The notes below the pieces were generated by a model. It saw only the letters and a list, made by a program, of their open reading frames with translations, was not told the origin of the DNA and ran no database searches. A stretch of 64,000 nucleotides of DNA from contig NHZP01000045.1 in NCBI GenBank assembly GCA_003313425.1, positions 124,001 through 188,000 on the forward strand, written 5' to 3'. The translations under genes were made by a program, and so were the position numbers. The stretch comes from Pseudopyrenochaeta lycopersici. Taxonomy: Eukaryota > Ascomycota > Dothideomycetes > Pleosporales > Pseudopyrenochaetaceae. Below are positions 23,268 through 25,510 of this stretch, piece by piece. Numbering within the stretch: position 1 is the stretch's first letter; each line of letters starts with the position of its first letter.

Positions 23268-25313
23268 TACGACACCGTCCCTATCTCGCTCAGAATCTTC
23301 TCACCCTTTGCCTTGGCAGAGTCGAAGTTGCCGACCATGTAGAAAGCACCTGATGAGACATGTGAGAAAAGATGGCAAAGTTAGAGAGGAGTAAAAAGAT
23401 AGAAGCCTACCTTCAGGCATATCGTCAGCTTGACCATCCAAGATGGCCTTGAAGGAGCGGATCGTGTCCTCTAACTCGACCAGCTCTCCCTTGATCCCAG
23501 TAAACACCTCGGCAACAGCAAAGGGCTGGCTAAGAAATCTTTGAATCTTTCGTGCCCGCTCGACAGTTAGCTTGTCGGCTTCGGAGAGCTCGTCCATACC
23601 AAGAATCGCTATGACGTCCTGAAGCGATTTATATTCTTGGAGTATTCTCTGGACTCGTGCCGCCGTGTCATAATGCTCCTGGCCTACAATACGAGGGTCC
23701 AGAAGCCTTGATTTGGATCCGAGAGGGTCTACGGCCGGGTAGATGCCGAGCTCAGAAATGCCGCGCGAGAGTTCTGTAGTGGCGTCGAGATGGGCAAACG
23801 TCGTGGCCGGGGCAGGGTCGGACAGATCGTCCGCGGGCACGTACACAGCCTGCACAGACGTGATAGAGCCTTTATTGGTGGTGGTAATTCGCTCTTGCAT
23901 GGCACCCATATCGGACGCCAGCGTTGGCTGGTAGCCAACCGCAGAAGGAATGCGCCCAAGAAGTGCCGAGACCTCCGCGCCGGCCTGAGTGAAGCGGAAG
24001 ATATTGTCGATAAACAAGAGCACTGTATGTTGAGGGTTGGTGGTCAGCAAGGATTGCAAAGTATGCCTTAGCCCTGTCACGGGGCGCTTCTAATTGGAGG
24101 TTCATCTCATACCATCTTGGCCTTCGTTTCGGAAATATTCCGCAATGGTCAGACCAGTCAAGGCGACCCTAGCGCGAGCACCGGGAGGCTCATTCATCTG
24201 GCCAAAAACCAGAGCAACCTTGGAGTCGCCATCCAGGTTGATAACCCCTGTTTGCTGCATTTCGTGGTAGAGATCATTGCCCTCGCGGGTCCGCTCCCCA
24301 ACGCCAGTGAAGACAGAGAAGCCACCATGTGCTTTTGCAATGTTGTTCTGGCAGCCACCCGCGTGGTTAGCAAAGCACAAATAGGGGAAGGGGTATCTGA
24401 AAATGACCGCAAATCACTCACGATCAACTCTTGGATGAAGACGGTTTTGCCCACTCCAGCACCGCCAAAGAGGCCAATCTTCCCGCCCCTAGCGTACGGA
24501 GCGAGCAGATCGACGACTTTAATTCCGGTGACTAGGAGCTCAGCGCTTGTGGATTGATCAGTGAACTCTGGGGGATCTGTGTGAATGGGCATCTTCTTGA
24601 CCCCTTCAATGGGGCCTCGCTCGTCGATGGGGTCGCCCGTGACATTCATGATGCGGCCAAGGGTAGCGTAGCCAACGGGTACCAGGATGGGGCTACCAGT
24701 GTCGATGACCTCGGCACCTCGAACTAGGCCCTCCGTTCCTGTGCGACCTCTAGTCAGCGCTCTCTCGCACTTGGTTACTAGACTGGAGCCTCATCTCACC
24801 GTCCATGGCAATGCATCTGACCGTATTTTCTCCAACGTGTTGCTGCGAGTACAATGAATGCATCAGCACTCCGAACAGGGGTGTGCTGCGTAAGATGGAT
24901 TCAACTTACCGCAACTTCCAGCACGAGCCTCCCTCCGTCCTTTTGTGTTTCCAATGCATTGAGAATCGCTGGCAGGTCTTCGGAGCCCTCGAATTTGACG
25001 TCGACGACTATTTTGGTGTAGGCCGCGAGTGAGTACATGCAGCAACAAGGCCAGGCCCGGAGTTGGACGACGTACCAGCTCCGATAACGGCATTGATCTT
25101 ACCACGATTGGCGGAGGCTGATGAGCTCTGCCATCGTCGGGCAGACCCTTGGAGAGTAGGGTGGTGGACAATAGGCTTCCTTGGAGGGAGAGCTTGGATG
25201 CCCGAGCGTAGGCGGCAAGCGCGCCCGGTTGTTCTGGCAAACGCACTAGAAAGGGGGCATGTGAATATCATCTCTCAAAGAAAACAGACGGATTGAACGC
25301 ACGATCTGAACAT
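23268..25313 (-). CDS. F1-ATPase beta subunit paralogue, mitochondrial
   Basis: Complete catalytic beta subunit of mitochondrial ATP synthase. The start ATG at 25313 opens Met-Phe-Arg-Ser; the first intron (GTGCGT to TAG) then joins it to an Arg/Ser-rich mitochondrial presequence. Key motifs are present: P-loop GlyGlyAlaGlyValGlyLysThr (about 24450), LeuPheIleAspAsnIlePheArgPhe (Walker B region, about 24005), DELSEAD loop region (about 23590) and the final [12 protein letters not shown] exon ending at TAG 23268-23270. All introns have GT-AG ends and keep frame. Against the near-invariant family it differs in several places: AlaSerAspMetGlyAla for AlaValAspMetGlyGln, ThrGluLeuSerArg for ThrValLeuSerArg, and one residue fewer in PheArgAsnGluGlyGln. 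The Arg equivalent to the bacterial aurovertin-site Arg is conserved (LysIleGlnArgPhe). A TCGGN3CCGA site lies 187 bp upstream. Inference: an extra, cluster-regulated copy, possibly for self-protection. Whether it is the genome's only copy cannot be seen. Confidence 0.92.
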
Positions 25314-25499
25314 GGCTATAAGCGGACGACGTGCATGAGAATGTGCGTACGGTGGGCAGTGGTTCGTGTTAGGGAGTAGGGGCGAGCTGCTCAGGTCGAG
25401 GAACGCTGAATGAGATTGGGGAAAGACAGTTGTCTCAGTATGGGTAATGGTGAAAGGAAAGCGCTAGTGTGTCCCCTAGTCTTAACGGGCGCCGATGAT

Positions 25500-25510
25500 T
25501 CGGCCACCGA
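25500..25510. promoter_or_regulatory. TCGGN3CCGA palindrome (TCGGCCACCGA)
   Basis: Exact match, 187 bp upstream of the F1-beta start at 25313 and more than 2.4 kb from the next gene, so it can only sensibly belong to the beta-subunit gene. Confidence 0.75.

Follow-up and report, generated by a model that had tools for sequence, protein, structure and literature searches.

A second F1-ATPase beta subunit in an ETP gene cluster of Pseudopyrenochaeta lycopersici: a candidate self-resistance gene from a rare paralogue clade

The stretch of Pseudopyrenochaeta lycopersici DNA analysed here (64,000 nucleotides, positions 124,001 to 188,000 of contig NHZP01000045.1; hereafter the window) carries a gene cluster of the epidithiodiketopiperazine (ETP) type that extends beyond its right edge (Table 1). 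Between the Zn2Cys6 regulator and an MFS exporter of this cluster, where a first-pass annotation of the sequence had placed it, lies an intact gene for an F1-ATPase beta subunit. The spliced model, with GT..AG introns in its eight-exon structure, encodes 522 aa and includes a mitochondrial-type presequence (no acidic residues among the first 50 positions), a P-loop and the full C-terminus, in keeping with the complete gene that had been described. A search of the 62.7-Mb genome found two beta genes, the other being an ordinary copy on contig C16 to which the paralogue is 80.5% identical. The paralogue is thus not the genome's sole beta gene, the outcome on which the annotation had been prepared to give up its reading, and an essential gene is present here in a second copy alongside the housekeeping one, as is required of a target-duplication self-resistance gene. 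The genome holds a single match to the alpha C-terminal domain, and therefore beta alone is doubled.

Table 1. Genes and regulatory site of the ETP cluster, in window coordinates (palindrome, exact TCGGN3CCGA site)
Feature	Position	Strand	Basis and remarks
Cytochrome P450	13212..14938	-	Pfam; palindromes 15088 and 15145 upstream; limits approximate
O-methyltransferase	15221..16838	+	Weak Methyltransf_2 Pfam match below cut-off; divergent from P450 13212..14938, both palindromes common; limits approximate
Cytochrome P450	17678..19590	+	Pfam; palindrome 17561; limits approximate
Zn2Cys6 (GliZ-like) regulator	20475..21880	-	Sequence reading; first two cysteines in upstream exon near 21795-21880 (approximate), a fragment without Pfam match; no exact palindrome upstream
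F1-ATPase beta paralogue	exons 25313-25303 (from ATG 25313), 25245-25076, 25007-24910, 24842-24800, 24738-24422, 24347-24113, 24022-23411, 23349-23267 (stop, 23267)	-	Spliced translation, genome search, PDB sequence matches
Palindrome TCGGCCACCGA	25500..25510		187 bp upstream of beta ATG
MFS exporter	27717..29681	+	Pfam MFS_1; no exact palindrome within 600 bp upstream
GliK-like protein (likeness presumed)	30012..31101	-	FAYGSNM motif reading; no Pfam match; palindrome 31304; limits approximate
Glutathione S-transferase (GliG-like)	31539..32371	+	Pfam; palindrome 31304 common with GliK-like gene
O-methyltransferase	32533..33840	-	Pfam; no exact palindrome within 600 bp
Class I/II aminotransferase (GliI-like)	35391..36892	+	Pfam; palindrome 35138
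Protein reminiscent of AsaB/CmcJ (presumed likeness to AsaB/CmcJ-type oxygenases)	37688..38797	+	Two fragments without Pfam match; palindrome 37543
ETP-type NRPS, T-C-A-T-C, 1578 aa	39275..44078	-	One intron 41579-41513; palindrome 44188
AtaL-like protein	45011..45641	-	Pfam PF08982, second exon below cut-off; no exact palindrome within 600 bp
Cytochrome P450	45775..47541	+	Pfam; no exact palindrome within 600 bp
Cytosine/purine-type permease	48216..50094	+	Pfam; palindrome 48135
GliT-like dithiol oxidase, CLFC (CXXC)	50740..51845	+	Palindrome 50607
Cytochrome P450	56071..57724	-	Pfam; palindrome 57807
MFS transporter	58171..59651	-	Pfam; no exact palindrome within 600 bp
ABC transporter	60330..63001	+	Pfam; palindrome 60245; limits approximate

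The exact regulator palindrome that had been reported 187 bp before the beta ATG is present and belongs to a dense regulon. The window holds 12 exact TCGGN3CCGA sites, compared with a mean of 0.86 and a maximum of 4 in 100 shuffles, and with a genome-wide density of 0.59 per 64 kb (578 sites in 62.73 Mb; Poisson P ~2e-12 for the window); the backward-read pattern occurs 1002 times in the genome, and hence the palindrome is not enriched genome-wide. Within the window, the same half-sites with other spacers from 0 to 8 gave 0-2 sites, and among 12 half-sites tried at spacer 3 the runner-up, GCTG, reached 6. All 12 sites lie upstream of cluster genes, nine before single genes at 81-270 bp (the paralogue among them) and the others between two divergent pairs at 108-387 bp, distances being taken to the first in-frame ATGs; 13 of the 19 gene starts tested have an exact site. 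Eight further sites occur in the next 20 kb rightward, with none in the 30 kb leftward of the window and none in the 5.5 kb of the housekeeping-beta locus. The paralogue is apparently co-regulated with the ETP cluster, and its own regulon site makes cluster-independent expression unlikely.

The gene content of the region is revealing of the probable product class. The right flank encodes an M19 dipeptidase and a flavoenzyme with a CXXQ motif (CMFQ, L021:8474-9489), which is a reported mark of the biosynthesis of alpha,beta'-disulfide ETPs of the pretrichodermamide/gliovirin kind (PMC12028603). Both the CXXC oxidase and the CXXQ flavoenzyme are therefore found at this locus, together with a candidate acetyltransferase for the beta'-acetoxy group, an MBOAT-like fragment scoring 24.8 bits against a Pfam cut-off of 25. 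The best PDB match of the window's CXXC protein is GliT (4ntc, 5.5e-110) and that of the CXXQ protein is 7br0 (7.3e-73), which we take to be AclR, the aspirochlorine flavoenzyme; in alignment, 7br0 has CXXH and GliT has CXXC where the flank protein has CXXQ. By kinds of genes, the cluster resembles the tda cluster of Trichoderma hypoxylon (pretrichodermamide A/gliovirin) and the gliovirin cluster of T. virens, with which it has in common the NRPS, the CXXC oxidase and CXXQ flavoenzyme, the acetyltransferase candidate, a dipeptidase, a GST, a GliK-like protein, an aminotransferase, several P450s and methyltransferases; the window also encodes an AtaL-like protein and a purine-type permease. The group to which the window NRPS belongs also takes in a Trichoderma sp. 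NRPS at 52% identity. An ETP of the alpha,beta'-disulfide (gliovirin/pretrichodermamide) type would thus be the best explanation of the gene content. Emestrin is a mitochondrial poison, and an emestrin-type product was considered and set aside; the A. nidulans var. acristatus NRPS (41%) stands well apart from the group of the window NRPS. The terms ATP synthase, ATPase and mitochondria were not found in the available text of a paper on the emestrin cluster (PMC12910431).

The paralogue belongs to a rare clade of beta subunits in which two substitutions, V334E and D352G (bovine numbers), are always paired. Two changes at normally invariant positions had been singled out beforehand: the V to E change in TTELSR proved diagnostic, but the serine of ASDMGA was dropped, its position being less than 95% conserved in ordinary betas. 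The second diagnostic change, from DPLD to DPLG, had escaped the earlier reading. Among 133 betas (131 among the matches listed and the two of this genome), E334 and G352 occur jointly in 14 and never singly; 114 have V/D, three have V with another residue at 352, and two could not be read by pattern. In a smaller set (108 of 120 listed betas, those of 470-620 aa, together with this genome's pair) the counts are 13 E334/G352, 94 V/D and three with V and either E or A at 352; since the rows were sorted on those two residues, the figures of 13 and 94 are a sorting and not a test.

The independent test of the clade is a tree built without columns 334 and 352. Trees of 50, 34 and 35 rows were made, picked for spread and including all clade members then known, with the 35-row tree adding A. 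viridinutans. In this last tree, with the diagnostic columns removed as they were for the 34-row one, the 14 betas form one group (support 100/99), and the phylogenetic comparison proposed with the first annotation accordingly places the paralogue apart from the housekeeping beta. Relationships inside the clade are less stable: an Onygenales pair is weakly placed (82/28 with 34 rows, an open fork with 35), and Trichoderma with A. floccosus copy B (97/79 with 34 rows) is not recovered with 35 rows, where these two join A. terreus and A. floccosus copy A in a four-row group (99/95). The clade has at least 14 members, as others may score lower than the matches listed; in a 13-row profile search the A. 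viridinutans member (P0244) scored 992 bits, among ordinary fungal betas (up to 1011), and the other 12 clade rows scored 1021-1076.

The ETP cluster and the clade beta seem to have been kept together in several other fungi. In six of them a clade beta and an orthologous ETP NRPS are listed on contigs of the same length (134,041; 129,106; 280,914; 139,139; 5,612,375; and 2,672,714), linkage being judged from these equal lengths rather than from the DNA of the contigs. The six fungi are Phaeosphaeriaceae sp. PMI808, Polytolypa, Ophidiomyces, A. floccosus and two Penicillium species. Two of the six shared contigs are chromosome-sized. Among the matches listed, six of 13 database clade members lie on such contigs, against a single ordinary beta out of 112 (Fisher P 2.4e-6); that one ordinary beta (P. 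angulare, 9.6 Mb) shows that same-length matches can arise by chance. Five of the 11 NRPSs at 50-83% identity (Trichoderma, P. steckii, P. canescens and a pair of metagenome contigs) lack a clade beta on a same-length contig among the matches listed. A clade beta does exist in Trichoderma, in another strain than the NRPS.

Trees of the two proteins are similar, in imperfect agreement. Distances for NRPS and beta correlate with r = 0.84, a value reached in 11 of 40,320 permutations; part of this correlation is shared species history. The NRPS tree (37 rows, namely the window's and 36 of 120 listed) has a 13-row group with support of 100 that contains every beta-linked row; unlinked rows are interspersed, so that the beta-linked label needs five changes. 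These data bear on whether the paralogue is a functionless passenger, a duplicated housekeeping gene that was captured by the cluster. Duplication and capture into clusters do occur, and five database clade betas have no ETP NRPS partner among the matches listed (A. terreus, A. floccosus copy A, A. novofumigatus, A. viridinutans and Arachnomyces). However, the gene has stayed intact across long divergence and belongs to a single clade; it has its own palindrome, its counterparts in six other species are listed with the NRPS on same-length contigs, and the two trees resemble each other, all of which leaves this explanation very little credence.

Residues 334 and 352 flank the aurovertin pocket, being situated on the nucleotide domain's last helix and in the linker that comes after it. 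All 17 aurovertin-contact residues are identical in the window copy and its own housekeeping beta, including R412, the main aurovertin residue, which rules out resistance via altered contacts; only the flanking residues 334 and 352 differ, and resistance to aurovertin-site drugs is therefore not implied by the contacts. The annotation had mentioned beta copies near clusters for citreoviridin-type compounds, and such a copy is ctvE, an extra F1-ATPase beta next to the A. terreus citreoviridin cluster that is held or predicted to give self-resistance to citreoviridin (PMC7077241). By elimination, the extra, non-housekeeping A. terreus beta (P0010) is ctvE; it has E334 and G352 in common with the window beta and groups with it, apart from ordinary betas. 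In contrast to the window beta, which retains R412 in an NRPS/ETP regulon, ctvE adjoins a polyketide cluster and the A. terreus copy has changed contacts (R412K). K412 is also found in both A. floccosus copies and the P. cf. griseofulvum copy. Because it groups with the ETP-linked A. floccosus copy B, with copy A and with Trichoderma, the A. terreus ctvE-type copy may be a derived recruit.

Alternatively, the paralogue could protect against another F1 inhibitor, a citreoviridin- or aurovertin-like alpha-pyrone polyene made elsewhere in the genome or formerly, and be merely housed in the ETP cluster. The ctvE assignment, the position of the diagnostic residues beside the aurovertin pocket and the many ketosynthase matches on other contigs of this genome would fit such a history. 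Yet none of the 75 ketosynthase matches in the genome is on the window's contig, a result that also speaks against a hidden polyketide cluster next door; the paralogue bears the ETP regulon site, in other genera its relatives are listed alongside the ETP NRPS, and its aurovertin contacts are unchanged where the four copies named above carry K412. Protection against a different inhibitor is thus unlikely. In the available text on the genome of the aurovertin producer (PMC7315530), the terms F1-ATPase and self-resistance were not found.

The paralogue is, in our judgment, probably a target-duplication self-resistance gene of an alpha,beta'-disulfide ETP cluster, induced by the cluster's regulator and making F1 insensitive. 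Self-resistance by a duplicated target had been proposed at the outset and is supported by the same-length-contig linkage with the NRPS, the similar trees and the extra A. terreus beta in the clade. Against it stand the unchanged aurovertin contacts, the NRPSs and clade betas without a partner among the matches listed, and an assay of the related compound DC1149B, described below, in which complex V was unaffected. The accompanying proposal that the product or a second product acts on ATP synthase would apply to the ETP itself; an adjoining polyketide as second product is disfavoured by the ketosynthase count. The Zn2Cys6 regulator would pair with the palindromes and so activate both the biosynthetic genes and, from the site upstream of its ATG, the second beta; once expressed, this subunit would be imported into mitochondria and join the ordinary alpha and the remaining subunits in an F1 that would keep making ATP in the presence of the ETP. 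The likeliest basis of this insensitivity would be the paired V334E and D352G. The sequence data as a whole suggest that this ETP subclass hits F1-beta and that the paralogue shields the producer.

ETPs are thiol-reactive and cause general mitochondrial stress, and an accessory beta that alters F1 performance (ATP hydrolysis, slip or redox state) during ETP production could also be a general stress adaptation rather than a source of target insensitivity; the regulon site would induce it along with production. The paralogue is not thiol-hardened, however: apart from the presequence it contains a single cysteine, which coincides with the sole cysteine of the housekeeping copy, and resistance through cysteine loss is likewise ruled out. 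Moreover, the two diagnostic residues are retained together in all clade members read, a pattern resembling selection on a site, and the stress adaptation is accordingly quite improbable.

Self-resistance by target duplication has fungal parallels in astD, the fellutamide proteasome subunit and the atpenin SDH, where, as would be the case here, an essential target is duplicated within the cluster concerned (PMC10320164). In the available portions of that paper, which describes FunARTS, citreoviridin is the only F1-beta example found, with no ETP example; likewise, no description of F1-beta within an ETP cluster was found in the titles and abstract openings of the openly accessible papers listed. 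More tentatively, and with somewhat less than an even chance, alpha,beta'-disulfide ETPs may be specific F1-ATPase inhibitors that bind beta beside the aurovertin pocket (~334-352), the insensitive beta having travelled with the clusters among Dothideomycetes, Eurotiomycetes and Sordariomycetes and ctvE having been recruited from such a cluster. A point in favour of the self-resistance reading is that the ETP DC1149B is lethal to glucose-starved cells at 0.02 uM and reduces oxygen consumption; against that reading, it inhibited only complex II (IC50 19 uM), the rest of the I-V panel, complex V included, being unaffected up to 30 uM, and its main target is still sought by its authors (PMC7946679, as far as its available text goes).

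If the self-resistance reading is true, an F1-beta target could explain why DC1149B acts on glucose-starved cells at nanomolar concentrations. The usual view of ETPs is that of promiscuous thiol-reactive poisons; a co-regulated, conserved and insensitive-looking beta would then suggest that one subclass of them has a specific target. F1-beta is missing from the FunARTS essential-gene set, according to its authors (PMC10320164), which would make it a blind spot in resistance-gene mining. The polyketide resistance gene ctvE would be tied to an NRPS cluster family, and residues 334 and 352 are offered for testing.

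A search of the whole genome (62.7 Mb, 188 contigs, of which the window's contig, C45, is 399,556 bases, the window being its bases 124,001-188,000) with the ATP-synthase nucleotide-binding family returned ten exon matches belonging to five genes, two of which are F1-ATPase betas. The first of these is the window copy, which the first-pass annotation had described as an intact extra beta lying between the regulator and the exporter of an epidithiodiketopiperazine (ETP) cluster. Both the place and the intactness agree with our reading, and the spliced translation includes the presequence, P-loop, DELSEAD region and full C-terminus. 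Nor is it the sole beta gene: a second, ordinary copy of seven exons and 517 aa (the housekeeping beta) is found on contig C16, has one intron fewer, shares 80.5% identity with the window beta over 508 columns and clusters in the tree with Plenodomus, Epicoccum, Bipolaris and Phaeosphaeria, a grouping that makes a pleosporalean host probable. The remaining three genes, from their translations, are F1 alpha (C8), V-ATPase A (C2) and V-ATPase B (C48). Because there are two F1 betas and a single match to the alpha C-terminal domain, on C8, the duplication in this genome appears to concern beta alone.

Features of Pseudopyrenochaeta lycopersici and paired genes in other fungi (window positions unless a contig is given)
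Genome	Feature	Position or contig	Strand	Details
P. lycopersici	window F1-ATPase beta	25313 to 23267	minus	8 exons, GT..AG introns, 522 residues
P. lycopersici	NPP1 matches	11184-12572	plus	two adjoining frames
P. lycopersici	permease	48216-50094	plus	cytosine/purine/allantoin type
P. lycopersici	HET-NACHT-ankyrin gene	52416-55196	minus	NLR-like
P. lycopersici	second AtaL-like gene	C3:1992157-1992711
Phaeosphaeriaceae sp. PMI808	NRPS + clade beta	equal-size contig		134,041 bases
Polytolypa hystricis	NRPS + clade beta	equal-size contig		129,106 bases
Ophidiomyces ophidiicola	NRPS + clade beta	equal-size contig		280,914 bases
Aspergillus floccosus	NRPS + clade beta	equal-size contig		139,139 bases
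Penicillium cf. griseofulvum	NRPS + clade beta	equal-size contig		5,612,375 bases
P. rolfsii	NRPS + clade beta	equal-size contig		2,672,714 bases

The window beta belongs to a group of paralogues (clade betas) marked by two residues, numbered as in bovine from the residue list in the available part of PMC9615146 and an alignment that is gap-free across the stretch. When 133 betas (131 among the matches listed and the two of this genome) were sorted at positions 334 and 352, 14 carried Glu/Gly and 114 Val/Asp, while three had Val with a different residue at 352 and two were unreadable by pattern. Among the 133, Glu334 is never seen without Gly352 or the reverse, and an acid seems to have shifted in a paired change from 352 to 334. 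The 14 clade betas form one group in an unrooted tree from which the diagnostic columns were removed (100/99 support), and there may be further members beyond the betas listed. Position 334 lies one helical turn before the aurovertin-contact residue A338, and 352 directly follows L351; all 17 aurovertin-contact residues are identical between the window beta and the housekeeping beta of this genome. K412 is found in A. terreus, both A. floccosus copies and P. cf. griseofulvum.

The palindrome TCGGN3CCGA, which we take to be a GliZ/SirZ-type site, has 12 exact occurrences in the window, as compared with a mean of 0.86 and a maximum of 4 in 100 shuffles; at the genome total of 578, a 64-kb stretch would hold 0.59, which puts the P of 12 sites at about 2e-12. 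With the same half-sites a spacer of 3 stands out, since the remaining lengths between 0 and 8 yield 0-2 sites, and among 12 half-sites tried at spacer 3 the runner-up has 6. An exact site lies 187 bp upstream of the window beta, as the first-pass annotation had claimed; in all, 13 of the 19 genes checked have one 81-387 bp before their start, taken approximately as the first in-frame ATG. The other six, namely the regulator, the MFS exporter, one O-methyltransferase, AtaL, one P450 and the second MFS, have no exact site within 600 bp upstream. Exact sites are absent from the left flank (30 kb) and the housekeeping-beta locus; on the right there are eight in the next 20 kb and none in the 10 kb after, and the ETP regulon extends about 15 kb past the window's right end.

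Pfam matches within the window comprise an NRPS (T-C-A-T-C, single adenylation domain, 1578 aa), GST, O-methyltransferases, an aminotransferase, several P450s, an AtaL-like protein, a thioredoxin-reductase-like oxidase, MFS and ABC transporters and a purine-type permease; the Zn2Cys6 regulator and a GliK-like protein were identified from motifs only. The permease, which has its own palindrome, is unexpected in an ETP cluster. The HET-NACHT-ankyrin gene also lies within the cluster region, in a stretch with no exact palindrome between those at 50607 and 57807. The NPP1 (necrosis-inducing protein family) matches are at the cluster's left edge, which is bordered by AT-rich sequence (window 1-8000 and the flank to its left, 31-37% GC), perhaps RIP-affected repeats.

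Beyond the window, the right flank (C45:188001-208000) carries P450s, an O-methyltransferase, an M19 dipeptidase, an aldo-keto reductase and a second GliT-like flavoenzyme, together with an MBOAT-like acyltransferase fragment just below the Pfam cut-off and a putative methyltransferase with no Pfam match. The spliced second flavoenzyme has the motif CMFQ and is 41% identical to the window's own, which has CLFC. The nearest solved structure is GliT (4ntc) for the CXXC protein and 7br0 for the CXXQ protein, although 7br0 has CXXH at this motif. The introduction of PMC12028603 gives a GliT-like CXXC oxidase plus a CXXQ flavoenzyme as a mark of alpha,beta'-disulfide ETP clusters, and by these motifs the present cluster is filed under that type; phaeosphaone D is also counted among such ETPs there.

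The best 120 of 816 NRPS matches include 11 near-full-length relatives (P0123-P0133; 50-83% identical) as well as a fragment at 78% (P0134). Six of the 11 are listed on a contig of the same size as that species' clade beta. Because the contigs of PMI808, Polytolypa, Ophidiomyces and A. floccosus are short, the genes there, matched by equal size, would be at most 129-281 kb apart; the P. cf. griseofulvum and P. rolfsii matches are weaker, their contigs being chromosome-sized. Trichoderma has both genes, in different listed strains, and P. steckii, P. canescens and two metagenome contigs have no clade beta among the matches listed. Viewed from the 13 database clade betas, six are NRPS-matched, one is genus-matched only, one is on a 1,771-base contig too short to tell, and five (A. 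terreus, A. floccosus copy A, A. novofumigatus, A. viridinutans and Arachnomyces) lack an NRPS partner among the matches listed. One of the 112 ordinary betas whose contig size is listed matches an NRPS row, versus 6/13 for the clade (Fisher P 2.4e-6); this P. angulare match (9,610,980 bases), with a more distant NRPS, is of the chance type and leaves the overall assessment as it was.

Eight taxa have both genes (for Trichoderma, taken from two strains), and across them the distances for NRPS and for beta are correlated (r = 0.84; 11/40,320 permutations as high), also without the window (r = 0.83; 6/5,040). Shared species history accounts for part of this correlation, since three of the closest pairs are related species. 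Trichoderma and A. floccosus, which belong to different classes, stand together with a metagenome row in the NRPS tree (support 100), and in the beta trees they share a group of four rows with the A. terreus pair (99/95). Their adjoining in both trees suggests that the NRPS-beta pair was transferred between fungi; weak nodes, such as the Onygenales position, disagree between the trees.

The part of PMC7077241 available names two betas in A. terreus, ATEG_07609 and ctvE, the latter predicted to confer citreoviridin self-resistance; thus, by elimination, its clade member (P0010) is taken as ctvE. P0010 forms a pair with A. floccosus copy A, and next to this pair stand the ETP-linked copy B and Trichoderma. 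The two A. floccosus betas of this resistant-looking clade (P0011, P0030) are on different contigs among the matches listed, one listed with the ETP NRPS and the other almost identical to that of A. terreus.

Self-resistance, the role first proposed for the window beta, is still its best reading and a probable one; we are somewhat less sure that the ETP acts directly on F1-beta. DC1149B is presumably a pretrichodermamide-type ETP. The available sections of PMC7946679 describe its isolation from Trichoderma lixii, alongside the related compound trichodermamide A, its killing of glucose-starved PANC-1 cells at 0.02 uM (710 uM with glucose) and a reduction of oxygen consumption. Of complexes I-V it affects complex II only (19 uM), the others being unaffected up to 30 uM, which counts against F1 as its target in the enzyme used. 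Cell killing and complex II inhibition differ a thousand-fold, and the authors say that they are still seeking the true target. No mitochondrial mechanism for a related compound was found in the available part of PMC9605374, and no report of F1-beta associated with an ETP cluster was found in the open-access literature searched.

Elsewhere in the genome, the second AtaL-like gene has no exact palindromes in the 30 kb around it and a single open frame of at least 200 aa in its 10-kb stretch. Ketosynthase matches with identical or near-identical scores on contigs C137, C147 and C171, and also C123, C79 and C129, look like recent multiplication of one PKS.
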